Below are positions 8,286 through 54,846 of a stretch of 64,000 nt of DNA, piece by piece. Made by a program: the position numbers and the translations under genes. The notes under the pieces are model-generated. The model ran no database searches and was not told the DNA's origin. It saw only the letters and a program-made list of their open reading frames with translations. Origin of the DNA: Marinicauda algicola. Its GTDB lineage: Bacteria > Pseudomonadota > Alphaproteobacteria > Caulobacterales > Maricaulaceae. Each line of letters starts with the position of its first letter. Position 1 is the stretch's first letter. The DNA lies in the NCBI RefSeq assembly GCF_017161425.1, contig NZ_CP071057.1, positions 434,001 to 498,000 of the forward strand, in the 5' to 3' direction.

Positions 8286-8795
8286 CTAGCTCAGCGCGCC
8301 GTCCGTGGCGCGCCCGGTCAGCGTGCGCCGGGCAAGCGGTCCTCTCAGCAGCAGGATCAGGCCGGCGCAAAGCCAGCTGACCACCGCCGCGACGAACAGG
8401 GCCGGGGAGGTCTCCACCGGCTGTGCGTCCTGCCAGGCCGTCGGCGTCTCGATCCCGAGCGGGGTGAAGAGGTGGAAGACGATCGCCCCGCTCATCACGC
8501 CGATCGCGATCAGCGCGCCGAGACTCTGGGAGAGGGCGGCGTGCGCCTCGCGGCCCCGTGTCACGACCACCAGCGCGGGCAGCACGACCAGCAGCAGGGC
8601 GGCGGCCAGCTCGGCAAGGCCGATGATCCAGGGCCCCGCCGGATAGAACAGATCGATTCCCGACCAGTCGCGCAGCGTGGTGAATATGTGGCGCGGGGTT
8701 TCGTGACCGGTGAACTTGAAGCGCAGGGAGTCGATGAAGATCGCCGAGATGAACAGGGCCGCGGCCCAGCTGGCGAGGCGGGTTATGGAGGGCAT
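8286..8795 (-). CDS. DoxX-like four-helix membrane protein
   Basis: A 169-residue protein with four hydrophobic segments (about residues 8-25, 52-78, 90-115 and 130-150). The overall plan (LASWAAALFISAIFIDSLRFKFTG, then GIAELAAALLLV- and GA-IVFHLF-type helices) is that of DoxX/DUF417-type inner-membrane proteins. The start at 8795 is the first ATG in frame and has a GGGAAG stretch upstream. Function in the family is mostly unknown; some members are tied to thiosulfate oxidation or redox stress. It is divergent from the methionine sulfoxide reductase gene, 171 bases away. Confidence 0.6.
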   Translation of the reverse strand: MPSITRLASWAAALFISAIFIDSLRFKFTGHETPRHIFTTLRDWSGIDLFYPAGPWIIGLAELAAALLLVVLPALVVVTRGREAHAALSQSLGALIAIGVMSGAIVFHLFTPLGIETPTAWQDAQPVETSPALFVAAVVSWLCAGLILLLRGPLARRTLTGRATDGALS

Positions 8796-8966
8796 TTGAA
8801 GCTTCCCGGGCGGGTGGATGACCGGTGGGCATACTAGCCTGCAGCGCCCGCACGCGCCGCTCACGTTTCGCGACCGGCCGATCACCCCTTCGTGTGCGCG
8901 CGGCCCCTTCCATCGCCGCGCCGCATGCTTACCTTCCCGCGCGTTCGTTGAAGGGAGACATCCGTC

Positions 8967-9467
8967 ATGGCCGAAGCGATGAGCACCGCGCCGCAGGGCG
9001 AGACCAGGGCCGAGGCCTATGTGCGCCTGAAGAAGGAGATCGCCAGCATCGTGGCGGGCGAGACGAGCGAGACCGCGCGCTTTGCCACTGCCGCCTGCCT
9101 GCTCGCGCACGCTTTCGCGCCGCGATTCTTCTGGACGGGCTTCTACCAGGTCGATCCCGACAAGCCCGGCGAACTCGTCGTCGGCCCCTACCAGGGCACG
9201 CTCGGCTGCCTTCGGATCCCGTTCGGGCGCGGGGTGTGCGGCGCGGCGGCCGAGACGGGCGAGACCCAGCTCGTGCCCGACGTGCACGCCTTTCCCGGCC
9301 ACATCGCCTGCGACAGCCGCAGCCAGTCGGAAATCGTCGTGCCGGTGTTTCGCGCCGACGGTTCGCTCGCTGCCGTGCTCGATGTGGACTCCGCCGACAG
9401 GGACGCCTTCGACGAGACCGATCGCGACGGCCTCGAGGCGATCTGCGAAATCCTGCTCAAGGCCTAG
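8967..9467 (+). CDS. msrC: Free methionine-(R)-sulfoxide reductase (GAF-type)
   Basis: A 166-residue GAF-domain enzyme of the YebR/fRMsr family, which reduces free Met-R-sulfoxide in the cytoplasm. Diagnostic segments are FFWTGFYQVD, GPYQGTLGCLRIPFGRGVCG, VHAFPGHIACD and SEIVVPVF. They contain the three family cysteines (in GCLRI, GVCG and IACD) that form the catalytic and resolving set. A GGGAG lies upstream of the ATG. The last 4 bases overlap the end of the convergent coiled-coil protein gene. Confidence 0.92.
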   Translation: MAEAMSTAPQGETRAEAYVRLKKEIASIVAGETSETARFATAACLLAHAFAPRFFWTGFYQVDPDKPGELVVGPYQGTLGCLRIPFGRGVCGAAAETGETQLVPDVHAFPGHIACDSRSQSEIVVPVFRADGSLAAVLDVDSADRDAFDETDRDGLEAICEILLKA

Positions 9468-9892
9468 AAAAGTCCGAGGAAGCGCTTCTTGCGGATCCTG
9501 ACCCGGACCTTGCCGGCGCCCGCCTTGCGTGCCGGGGACACGGCCGGCGCCGGCTTGCCCGCGAGCGCAGGCGACTTGCCGGGCAGGCGCGGGGCGGGCG
9601 GGGCGCAGACATCGGCGTCGCACATCGCCCCCTCCATCGCCGCGGTGCCCAGCACCGAGCTGACGGAGAGCCGCTCGGCGCCCGCCTCGGCCAGGCCGAG
9701 GCGCTGGCGCACCGCGCCGCGGAACTCGGCCGAGCGCGCCTCCAGGCGCGAGCGGCGTTCCTCCAGCTCGGCCAGGCGCGAGAGATCGACGGGGCGCGGG
9801 CTGCGGATGGCGCCGGACTGGCCCTCCATGCGGGCCTTGGCGAGCGCGGCGCGCGCGCGTTCGATGTTCAGCCGGGTGTTCTCGGTGACCAT
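9464..9892 (-). CDS. Small helical protein downstream of the proteasome-fold gene
   Basis: A 142-residue protein that I do not recognise. Residues about 5-70 are Ala/Glu/Arg-rich and likely a helical hairpin or coiled coil (LNIERARAALAKARMEG, LAELEERRSRLEAR). The middle holds two cysteines (CDADVCAPPAP), followed by a Pro/Ala low-complexity stretch. The tail is strongly basic and ends in a hydrophobic FLGLF. I chose the ATG at 9892 because GGGAGG sits 6 bases upstream; the ATG at 9898 overlaps that site. It starts 22 bases after the stop of the proteasome-fold gene and is almost certainly cotranscribed. An adaptor or substrate role is an inference only. Confidence 0.6.
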   Translation of the reverse strand: MVTENTRLNIERARAALAKARMEGQSGAIRSPRPVDLSRLAELEERRSRLEARSAEFRGAVRQRLGLAEAGAERLSVSSVLGTAAMEGAMCDADVCAPPAPRLPGKSPALAGKPAPAVSPARKAGAGKVRVRIRKKRFLGLF

Positions 9893-9914
9893 GATCATCC
9901 TCCCGTCCTCGCCG

Positions 9915-11153
9915 TCAGGATTTGCGAGCATACCATTCTACCCCGGCGGTGCGCGAGATCATAACCACATCGACATCCCCGCCGACCCCGGTCTGGGTCA
10001 TCTGGAGAGAACTCTTCAGAATATTCAGTTCCACCAGGGCCTTGGCGGTTTCCGCCAGCTGGCGCTTGCCCGACGCGGCCACAACCGCGATGAACGGATT
10101 GATGAATTCTTCCTGTGAAAAACTCTGGCTGCCGCGGATGAATTCCATGGTCAGCTGCGGCAGGGCGGTCGCCTGAAGCTTCTCCATGATCCCGGCCGCG
10201 CGCTCGCCCTCCACGCCCGCCTCGGTAAGGGCCTGTTCGGCCGCCGCCTCGTTGGTGACGAGGTTCATCGCGATCATCATGTCGAACATCAGGGGATGCA
10301 CGCCGCGCAGGAAGGCGTGGGTCATGTCGGCCTGGGCGAAGGTGCGCACGAAGGCGCTCGGCCCGTCATCCACCCCGACGCGGGTGGTCTCGTCGTGGGC
10401 GCGCTTCAGGATGCCGTCGACCAGGATAGAGGCGTAGAAGTGCTCGTAGACGGGGAAGACGTCGTCATTGCCGAAGCCGGCGAAGACCAGGCCCGCATAG
10501 GGTTCCAGGAAGGCCGGCATTGTGGCGAGCATGTAGGCGAAATCGAAGATCTTCGCGCGCGTCTCCTCGCCGCGGCCGAAATCGCCCAGGGCATCGGCGA
10601 GGATCGCGTCGATCATCTCCCCGTAGAGCTCATAGAAGCGGTCGCGCGAGAAGCCGGCGAGCACCTCGACGGGCTGGCGCTCGGTGCCGGCCTCGTCATG
10701 GGCGAGATGGGCCCGGTAGAGATCGAGCGCGGCGTCGAAGGCGGCCTCGTCGGTCTGGTACGGGCTGCCCGGATACATGCGCATGGCGCGGGCATGGTTC
10801 AGCACGGTCAGGACCGCGAGGCGCATCAGCTCCTCGAACTCGGCGCGCTCCTCGGCCTCGGGAAACAGGCGCCGGTTCCCGTCGATGAAGGCGAAGAAGG
10901 CCTTCGCGCACTCCTGCACCGTGTCGAAATCGGTGTCGCCATGCTGCTTGTTGAAGGCGTGGGCGATGTGCGACCAGGACCGCCCGATGACGTCGCCGCG
11001 CGAATAGACCATCAGCGCGATGGTCTTGGTCAGCGGCAGGATCTTCTCCGCCTCCAGCGTGACGACCGGCTCGGGCCCGCCGCCATAGGTGACCGCGCTG
11101 TCGGCCGCGAGCACCACCGCCTGGCGGTTCATGATCATCACTTCCGACGTCAT
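9915..11153 (-). CDS. Proteasome-fold Ntn-hydrolase-like protein with long C-terminal domain
   Basis: A 412-residue protein. After removal of Met1, the N-terminus TSEVMIMNRQAVVLAADSAV lines up without a gap on the 20S proteasome beta subunit (Thr1, V12-V13-L14-A15-A16-D17, T21). The catalytic Thr1 and Asp17 are kept, and EKILPL a few residues later gives a candidate for Lys33. Known proteasome/HslV/Anbu subunits are about 175-250 residues; here about 200 more, mostly helical, residues follow. No classical propeptide is present, so Met removal would expose Thr1. The start has GAGGGG upstream, and a CtrA-type box lies about 80 bases upstream. The partner gene follows after 22 bases. The fold assignment is an inference from this alignment; activity and substrate are unknown. 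Confidence 0.7.
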   Translation of the reverse strand: MTSEVMIMNRQAVVLAADSAVTYGGGPEPVVTLEAEKILPLTKTIALMVYSRGDVIGRSWSHIAHAFNKQHGDTDFDTVQECAKAFFAFIDGNRRLFPEAEERAEFEELMRLAVLTVLNHARAMRMYPGSPYQTDEAAFDAALDLYRAHLAHDEAGTERQPVEVLAGFSRDRFYELYGEMIDAILADALGDFGRGEETRAKIFDFAYMLATMPAFLEPYAGLVFAGFGNDDVFPVYEHFYASILVDGILKRAHDETTRVGVDDGPSAFVRTFAQADMTHAFLRGVHPLMFDMMIAMNLVTNEAAAEQALTEAGVEGERAAGIMEKLQATALPQLTMEFIRGSQSFSQEEFINPFIAVVAASGKRQLAETAKALVELNILKSSLQMTQTGVGGDVDVVMISRTAGVEWYARKS

Positions 11154-11231
11154 CGGCCCTGTCCCCTCGTGTCTCGCTCCGGCGCGCCCCCTCGGCGCAC
11201 CGGGCTCGCCGGTGCGCACCCTAGCCGAGCG

Positions 11232-11246
11232 TTAAGACCCTGTTAA
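11232..11246 (-). promoter_or_regulatory. CtrA-type box TTAA-N7-TTAA
   Basis: TTAA GACCCTG TTAA exactly matches the CtrA full-site consensus known from Caulobacter. It lies 79-93 bases upstream of the proteasome-fold gene start and 62 bases past the end of the deacetylase gene. It is the only perfect match I noticed in the window. Regulation by CtrA is an inference; the site could arise by chance, though TTAA is rare in this GC-rich DNA. Confidence 0.5.
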
Positions 11247-54771: not shown

Positions 54772-54846
54772 TGGTGCCGCTAGAGTGAATTGAACACTCG
54801 ACCTCTCCCTTACCAAGGGAACGCTCTACCCCTGAGCTATAGCGGC
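54772..54846 (-). tRNA. tRNA-Thr (anticodon GGT)
   Basis: A 75-nt tRNA with genome-encoded CCA. Acceptor GCCGCTA pairs with TAGCGGC. The anticodon arm reads TTCCC-TTGGTAA-GGGAG (anticodon GGT, for ACC and ACT), the D arm has AGCTCAGGGGTAGAGC, and the T arm GAGTGTTCAATTCACTC. Nearby genes are nfeD and the small gene before murA. No integrated element is seen beside it. Confidence 0.97.

Follow-up and report, generated by a model that had tools for sequence, protein, structure and literature searches.

A probable PMI-4-family proteasome homolog of Marinicauda algicola is co-encoded with a small basic protein

In 2021, Fuchs, Alva, and Lupas described 22 new proteasome-like families, the largest of which, PMI-4 ("proteasome homolog with multiple insertions"), comprises 501 sequences at 90% identity and has no known function (PMC8665760). 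Insertions at both of two sites, after H1/H2 and between H3/H4, were reported for PMI-3 and PMI-4, and of these two families only PMI-4 occurs in phages and Firmicutes (PMC8665760). This survey gives no informative gene context or co-occurrence for PMI-4, and our literature search, the coverage of which was incomplete, returned nothing on the family beyond it. The C-terminal octapeptide of HslU, EDLSRFIL, serves as an activator of the peptidase activity of HslV (PMC4106860). The Anbu operon contains ATP-grasp, alpha-E, and transglutaminase genes, and although Anbu has a conserved proteasome-like active site, cleavage of standard substrates was seen with no Anbu protein that was assayed (PMC6376114).

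We analysed a stretch of 64,000 nucleotides of the Marinicauda algicola genome, here called the window, for which an original prediction had proposed a 412-residue proteasome-fold (Ntn-hydrolase) protein encoded 22 bases upstream of a basic 142-residue partner, with no ATPase gene adjacent. The coordinates of the open reading frames bear out this layout, with 22 bases between the enzyme stop codon and the start of the partner gene (Table 1). The computed pI values of 11.4 for the partner and 4.8 for the enzyme confirm that the small protein is basic and give the two products opposite charge. A Pfam scan of the nearest neighbours (genes for a GAF-domain protein, a polysaccharide deacetylase, an esterase, and a DPP-IV type S9 peptidase) found, as predicted, no ATPase gene adjacent to the pair. 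A 445-codon open reading frame (8286-9623, minus strand) traverses the GAF gene in antisense and shares some of its length with the partner gene; the final part resembles a membrane protein, and the remainder is probably non-coding. The sole tRNA gene of the window is a tRNA-Thr (ggt) at 54772-54846 on the minus strand.

Table 1. Positions in the window of the two genes and of features within them
Feature	Position	Strand	Basis
Gene of the probable PMI-4-type proteasome-like Ntn hydrolase (P0001), 412 aa	9915..11153	-	ORF, AF2 model, Foldseek, homologs
Partner gene (P0002), 142 aa, basic	9464..9892	-	ORF 22 bp downstream of the enzyme gene
C-terminal tail of the partner, RKKRFLGLF	9467..9493	-	hhalign of partner profiles
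GGGAGG, candidate ribosome-binding-like site of the partner gene	9899..9904	-	Read from the sequence
Codon of Thr2, predicted N-terminal nucleophile after Met1 removal	11148..11150	-	157/157 unique homologs
Codon of Asp18 (proteasome Asp17)	11100..11102	-	157/157, partly biased by the search pattern
Codon of Lys37 (proteasome Lys33)	11043..11045	-	157/157, outside all search patterns
First helical insertion, ~residues 91-219, after H1/H2	10497..10883	-	DSSP of the model
H3/H4 region and second helical insertion, residues 284-393	9975..10304	-	DSSP of the model; PMC8665760
Last two core strands, 394-400 and 404-409, closing the Ntn fold	9927..9974	-	DSSP

Single-sequence searches of the enzyme against Pfam, NCBIfam, and the PDB gave no meaningful match. 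The Pfam family PF00227 (20S proteasome beta/HslV) left the enzyme unmatched and was matched weakly by 3 of 109 homologs (best E value, 0.008). When the host genome was searched with the Pfam proteasome family, which includes HslV, one other locus was found elsewhere and the PMI-4-type gene was not detected. It is the fold and the active site alone that reveal the relationship to proteasomes. An AlphaFold2 model built from an alignment of 109 relatives had a mean pLDDT of 91.4 and a pTM of 0.88. In a Foldseek search of this model against solved structures, the best 50 matches were all 20S proteasome subunits (E values of ~1e-4 at best, probabilities of 0.95 to 1.00). The leading matches had TM-scores of ~0.5 by target length, which are modest because of the insertions, and rmsd values of 16 to 20 Angstrom over whole-length alignments.

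The model shows the alpha-beta-beta-alpha fold of proteasome subunits, with the elements in proteasome order (S1-S4, H1, H2, S5-S8, H3, H4, and two final strands), strands and helices having been named from their DSSP order along the model. H1 and H2 lie at residues 60-71 and 79-90. They are followed by a first insertion of four helices (99-126, 135-151, 170-189, and 196-211), after which the next strand starts at residue 220; this is the place of the insertion that follows H1/H2 in PMI-4 (PMC8665760). Further helices lie between ~312 and 360 in the H3-H4 region, and V390, G391, G392, and G404, which flank the final strands, are 98 to 99% conserved among the relatives. Because this order is that of a proteasome subunit and the final strands come last, the ~200 extra residues sit within the fold. 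The active site, the model, and the Foldseek matches thus support the proteasome-fold reading of the original prediction; its ~200 additional helical residues are present, but they are inserted within the Ntn fold (~91-219 and within 284-393) and do not follow it at the C terminus.

The 412-residue enzyme starts with MTSEVMIMNRQAVVLAADSAVT, that is, with Met-Thr-Ser-Glu, followed by a LAADSAVT core and an EKI motif. After removal of Met1, the Thr would be residue 1, the Asp residue 17, and the Lys of the KI motif residue 36 (K37 when Met is counted). These are the residues that had been proposed as Thr1, Asp17, and a candidate for Lys33, and T2, D18, and K37 were each invariant in 157 of 157 unique full-length relatives, although the count for D18 is partly biased because this residue was inside the search patterns. 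The pattern used for the genome collection left out T2 and K37, so that their invariance there is no selection effect; of the three alternative patterns applied to viral contigs, one contained T2. Thr directly follows Met1 in all 157 relatives, and a propeptide is therefore absent. Together with the confident fold prediction, this conservation places the original observation beyond chance. The position of the oxyanion-hole Gly47 holds V or I in a hand alignment, and nearby columns vary among the relatives; this glycine does not appear to be plainly conserved, which we count against the mechanism proposed below.

Matches to the enzyme were found in 15 of 41 related genomes, 7 of them window-like at an identity of at least 68%, and homologs were present in 16 of 289 genomes of the same class. 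Further homologs are carried by plasmids, phages, and Streptococcus satellite phages, the viral ones coming from phages and satellites of Streptococcus, Porphyromonas, Stenotrophomonas, and Providencia. From species genomes 350 candidate stretches were collected, and from viral contigs 170; 80 of each set were kept. All of 20 diverse family members matched phrog_5990 of the PHROGs collection, the window enzyme over its full length with an E value of 4.6e-50. Since the enzyme combines both insertions with a distribution that includes phages and Firmicutes, it fits PMI-4, and membership in this family is most likely, as judged from the described architecture, distribution, and propeptide absence. 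The "distinct branch" of the original prediction holds in that the protein is not 20S beta, HslV, or Anbu, but the branch had already been described in 2021 as PMI-4 (PMC8665760) and is represented by phrog_5990.

Several unusual homologs were noted. A second PMI-4 subtype of 404 residues occurs in the Maricaulaceae genomes G008 and G024 (loci L012 and L014/L016) and is followed by a 99-residue gene (MKRYRYRK...) that is apparently unrelated. One homolog is split over two adjacent open reading frames (L197/L201, G080:C2:386508-387717) and is possibly a broken gene. On the Mesorhizobium plasmid NZ_AP023255 (L024, 1733-6437), a homolog lies near genes annotated as a ThiF adenylyltransferase, a multiubiquitin-domain protein, and a RES/XRE pair, and might be part of a ubiquitin-like conjugation system.

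An open reading frame begins near the enzyme stop codon in 123 of 127 non-redundant loci (<92% identity), a count that includes one frame of 407 residues that is no small partner (L100) and a few frames cut by contig ends. Two of the other four loci lie at a contig end, and the remaining two show candidates on inspection: in L189 a protein with the tail KKKRGFFGWLFGR, in L024 an overlapping frame. Under a strict rule (a co-directional ATG at -25 to +50 and a length of 40-80 residues in viral or 85-220 residues in alphaproteobacterial loci), 39 of 41 viral loci (95%) and 63 of 69 alphaproteobacterial loci (91%) had a small co-directional frame behind the enzyme. For other long open reading frames of the same loci, the control values were 16 of 119 (13%) and 22 of 258 (9%); we give these counts without a p-value because related sequences are not independent. 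The small gene spans Maricaulaceae chromosomes, prophages, and satellites. Among the 41 related genomes, a profile of the window-type partner matched the 7 with the window-type enzyme and no others, except for an eighth, weak match in a Parvularculaceae genome (G032), which was dismissed as spurious since its reading frame contains six stops. The small partner that had been predicted for this one locus is thus a near-universal feature of the family. It appears to be new, as it is reported neither in the survey that named PMI-4 (PMC8665760) nor in other literature that we found.

Homologs of the window partner are encoded at the same place in 16 related loci. In all 136 pairs of window-type partners pN was smaller than pS, and dN/dS was 0.31 against the nearest relative; on this sequence evidence, the gene is under purifying selection. 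The partner evolves faster than the enzyme, with a mean identity of 47% versus 72%. The bodies of the Maricaulaceae, Parvularculaceae, and Rhizomicrobium-type partners differ. When the Maricaulaceae and Parvularculaceae profiles were compared with hhalign, only the last 16 columns aligned (probability, 87.8; E value, 3.3e-6), with the tails ..KRKKFLGLF and ..KKKRFGIF; Rhizomicrobium-type partners end in RRSWLGRLFGR or similar. Alphaproteobacterial partners thus share a basic-aromatic C-terminal tail of the KKRFLGLF type, which recurs in lineages whose enzymes are under ~30% identical. A broad tail pattern was present in 60 of 67 alphaproteobacterial partners versus 12% of control frames; it replaced a narrower first pattern (48 of 67 versus 4%), both having been written after the tails had been seen. 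Phage partners are only ~35-70 residues long, lack this tail, and in many cases contain an FF or YF motif; homology to the alphaproteobacterial partners is not shown by their sequences. In the model of a natural Parvularculaceae read-through of enzyme and partner, partner residues ~37-66 and 117-136 reached block pLDDT values of ~68-82, and most other partner residues were disordered.

On Maricaulaceae chromosomes, a DPP-IV type peptidase gene flanks the pair on one side and a convergent GAF-domain gene on the other. For each of these two flanking genes, 9 of the 16 loci have a homolog at this place. In two genomes without the window-type pair, G010 and G008 (loci L212 and L213), a distance of 0.7-1 kb separates the DPP-IV gene from the GAF gene, and it holds a single gene, which we take to be a YgjP-like metallopeptidase from its appearance. 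Because the same flanking genes stand there without the pair, its two genes have entered or left this fixed site of the chromosome together. Besides the partner, no functional neighbour was common to the Maricaulaceae, Parvularculaceae, and Rhizomicrobium-type loci, each lineage having its own conserved neighbours.

The predicted fold, the invariant active site, the near-universal co-encoding, the joint gain and loss, the purifying selection, and the shared tail are the observations on which we base the following explanation, to which we give an even chance: the two genes form a module of a PMI-4 enzyme and a basic partner that binds it and then activates it or brings it substrate or location. 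The first gene product would be a catalytically competent Ntn hydrolase in which removal of Met1 exposes Thr as nucleophile, acting with the equivalents of Asp17 and Lys33; its two helical insertions would probably prevent a normal stacked ring. The small, strongly basic, and largely flexible partner would bind the acidic enzyme, with one or two short helices and, above all, the conserved basic-aromatic tail as the most likely contacts, and would control or feed it in the role that the ATPase has for HslV. The substrate-presenting adaptor of the original prediction would be one of several possibilities for this role. We infer Met1 removal, catalysis, the docking of the partner as the most likely interaction, the direction of control, and any substrate; control through the tail is likened to that of HslV by the tail of HslU. 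Counted against docking, the tail had a low pLDDT in the read-through model (block mean, 51). A single docking mode may not apply to all partners, given the short, tailless phage partners, and the basic-aromatic tail could instead bind membranes or nucleic acids. A conserved active site without detectable peptidase activity, which would also speak against the proposed enzyme, has a precedent in Anbu (PMC6376114).

At the level of biological role, the pair may serve in phage defence or superinfection exclusion, as a cassette that has become domesticated in some chromosomes, a possibility compatible with each of the molecular explanations and on balance unlikely. It would agree with the position of the pair at accessory sites of phages, where the neighbours often include antiterminator Q (10 of the 121 neighbour proteins that were scanned), repressors, HNH endonucleases, holins, and endolysins. 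In several contigs, moreover, the pair is oriented opposite to the genes on either side, as is usual for an accessory "moron" gene. In the Streptococcus satellite phage Javan468 and prophage Javan85 (L019 and L020), PMI-4 is at or beside the last gene of the element, and element ends are a common place for accessory genes. However, the window enzyme matched no PADLOC model, 20 homologs gave four weak single hits, known defence genes among the phage neighbours were scattered hits only, the location in Maricaulaceae is stable and conserved, and we found no published assay. Filing the pair as a known anti-phage defence system was rejected as unsupported by these PADLOC results.

Quite unlikely, in our estimation, is a partner that, translated together with the enzyme, acts as an inhibitor or antitoxin-like guard and blocks the active site until a trigger such as phage infection removes it. 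The enzyme would then be born active, because it has no propeptide in any of the 157 relatives, and the occurrence on phages, satellites, and plasmids as a compact cassette of two genes, the presence or absence of both genes together, and the fast evolution of the partner would all suit such a guard. Against it, the Maricaulaceae pair keeps one chromosomal site with conserved neighbours, unlike typical mobile toxin-antitoxin pairs, and the window enzyme is without a PADLOC match.

It is improbable that the partner is a specific substrate, cleaved or ligated by PMI-4 at a conserved site. Connectase, a proteasome homolog that acts as a specific protein ligase (PMC8665760), would be the model for such an activity, and the partners, which are for the most part flexible and carry one or two short motifs that are conserved, would suit it; but the feature shared between partner lineages is at the free C terminus, where there is little to cut off, and the S3/S4 insertion by which connectase is recognised is absent from PMI-4, whose insertions lie elsewhere. 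We hold it to be similarly improbable that the partner anchors the enzyme to membranes or nucleic acids, its basic-amphipathic tail recruiting the enzyme to a site where it processes nearby targets: tails such as RRSWLGRLFGR and GSWIRAL resemble, we assume, short basic amphipathic membrane-binding segments, but this tail is missing from phage partners, and which neighbours are conserved depends on the lineage. That the small frame is coincidental or unrelated to the enzyme, as the absence of detectable homology outside the tail between partners of distant lineages might suggest, is very improbable and strongly disfavoured by the control comparison (95% and 91% of loci versus 13% and 9% of controls), by the purifying selection on the partner, and by the exact co-occurrence of the window-type genes.

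To return to the module of enzyme and docking partner, we tentatively suggest, with somewhat less than even confidence, that PMI-4 and its partner form a proteasome-like system of two components that is widespread and works without an ATPase, a short, fast-evolving protein switching or aiming a Thr-nucleophile enzyme. Prophages and satellites would have spread this system, possibly for defence, and it would have become fixed as a function of the chromosome in some alphaproteobacteria. The enzyme itself is a new member of a described, uncharacterised family, and the near-universal partner is the part worth following: it is a first testable handle on PMI-4, one of the 22 families described without a clue to function. 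A partner that proved to be an activator or a guard would reveal a way of controlling proteasome-like enzymes in which no ATPase takes part.

Compared with known systems, the window enzyme shares with PMI-4 the Thr1/Asp17/Lys33 residues, the lack of a propeptide, both insertions, an occurrence in many bacterial phyla and phages, and the lack of an AAA+ partner; for PMI-4 as described (PMC8665760), no informative gene context or co-occurrence is given, whereas here a small downstream gene is near-universal. The phage family phrog_5990 is the same family, labelled "unknown function" in PHROGs with no partner annotated. Connectase is likewise a proteasome homolog with a helical insertion and possibly specific for a single substrate, but it lacks H1/H2 and carries its insertion between S3 and S4 (PMC8665760); the window enzyme, as modelled, differs in having H1/H2 and insertions at other sites. 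Anbu is also proteasome-like with conserved co-encoded genes, but the Pfam scan of the nearest neighbours found no ATP-grasp, alpha-E, or transglutaminase gene beside the pair, which sets it apart from the Anbu operon. HslV has the same Ntn fold and triad; its partner HslU differs from the one described here, which has 142 residues and gave no ATPase match in a Pfam search. The activation of HslV by the aromatic-bearing C-terminal tail of its partner (PMC4106860) is the nearest precedent for the control by a tail that we propose here.
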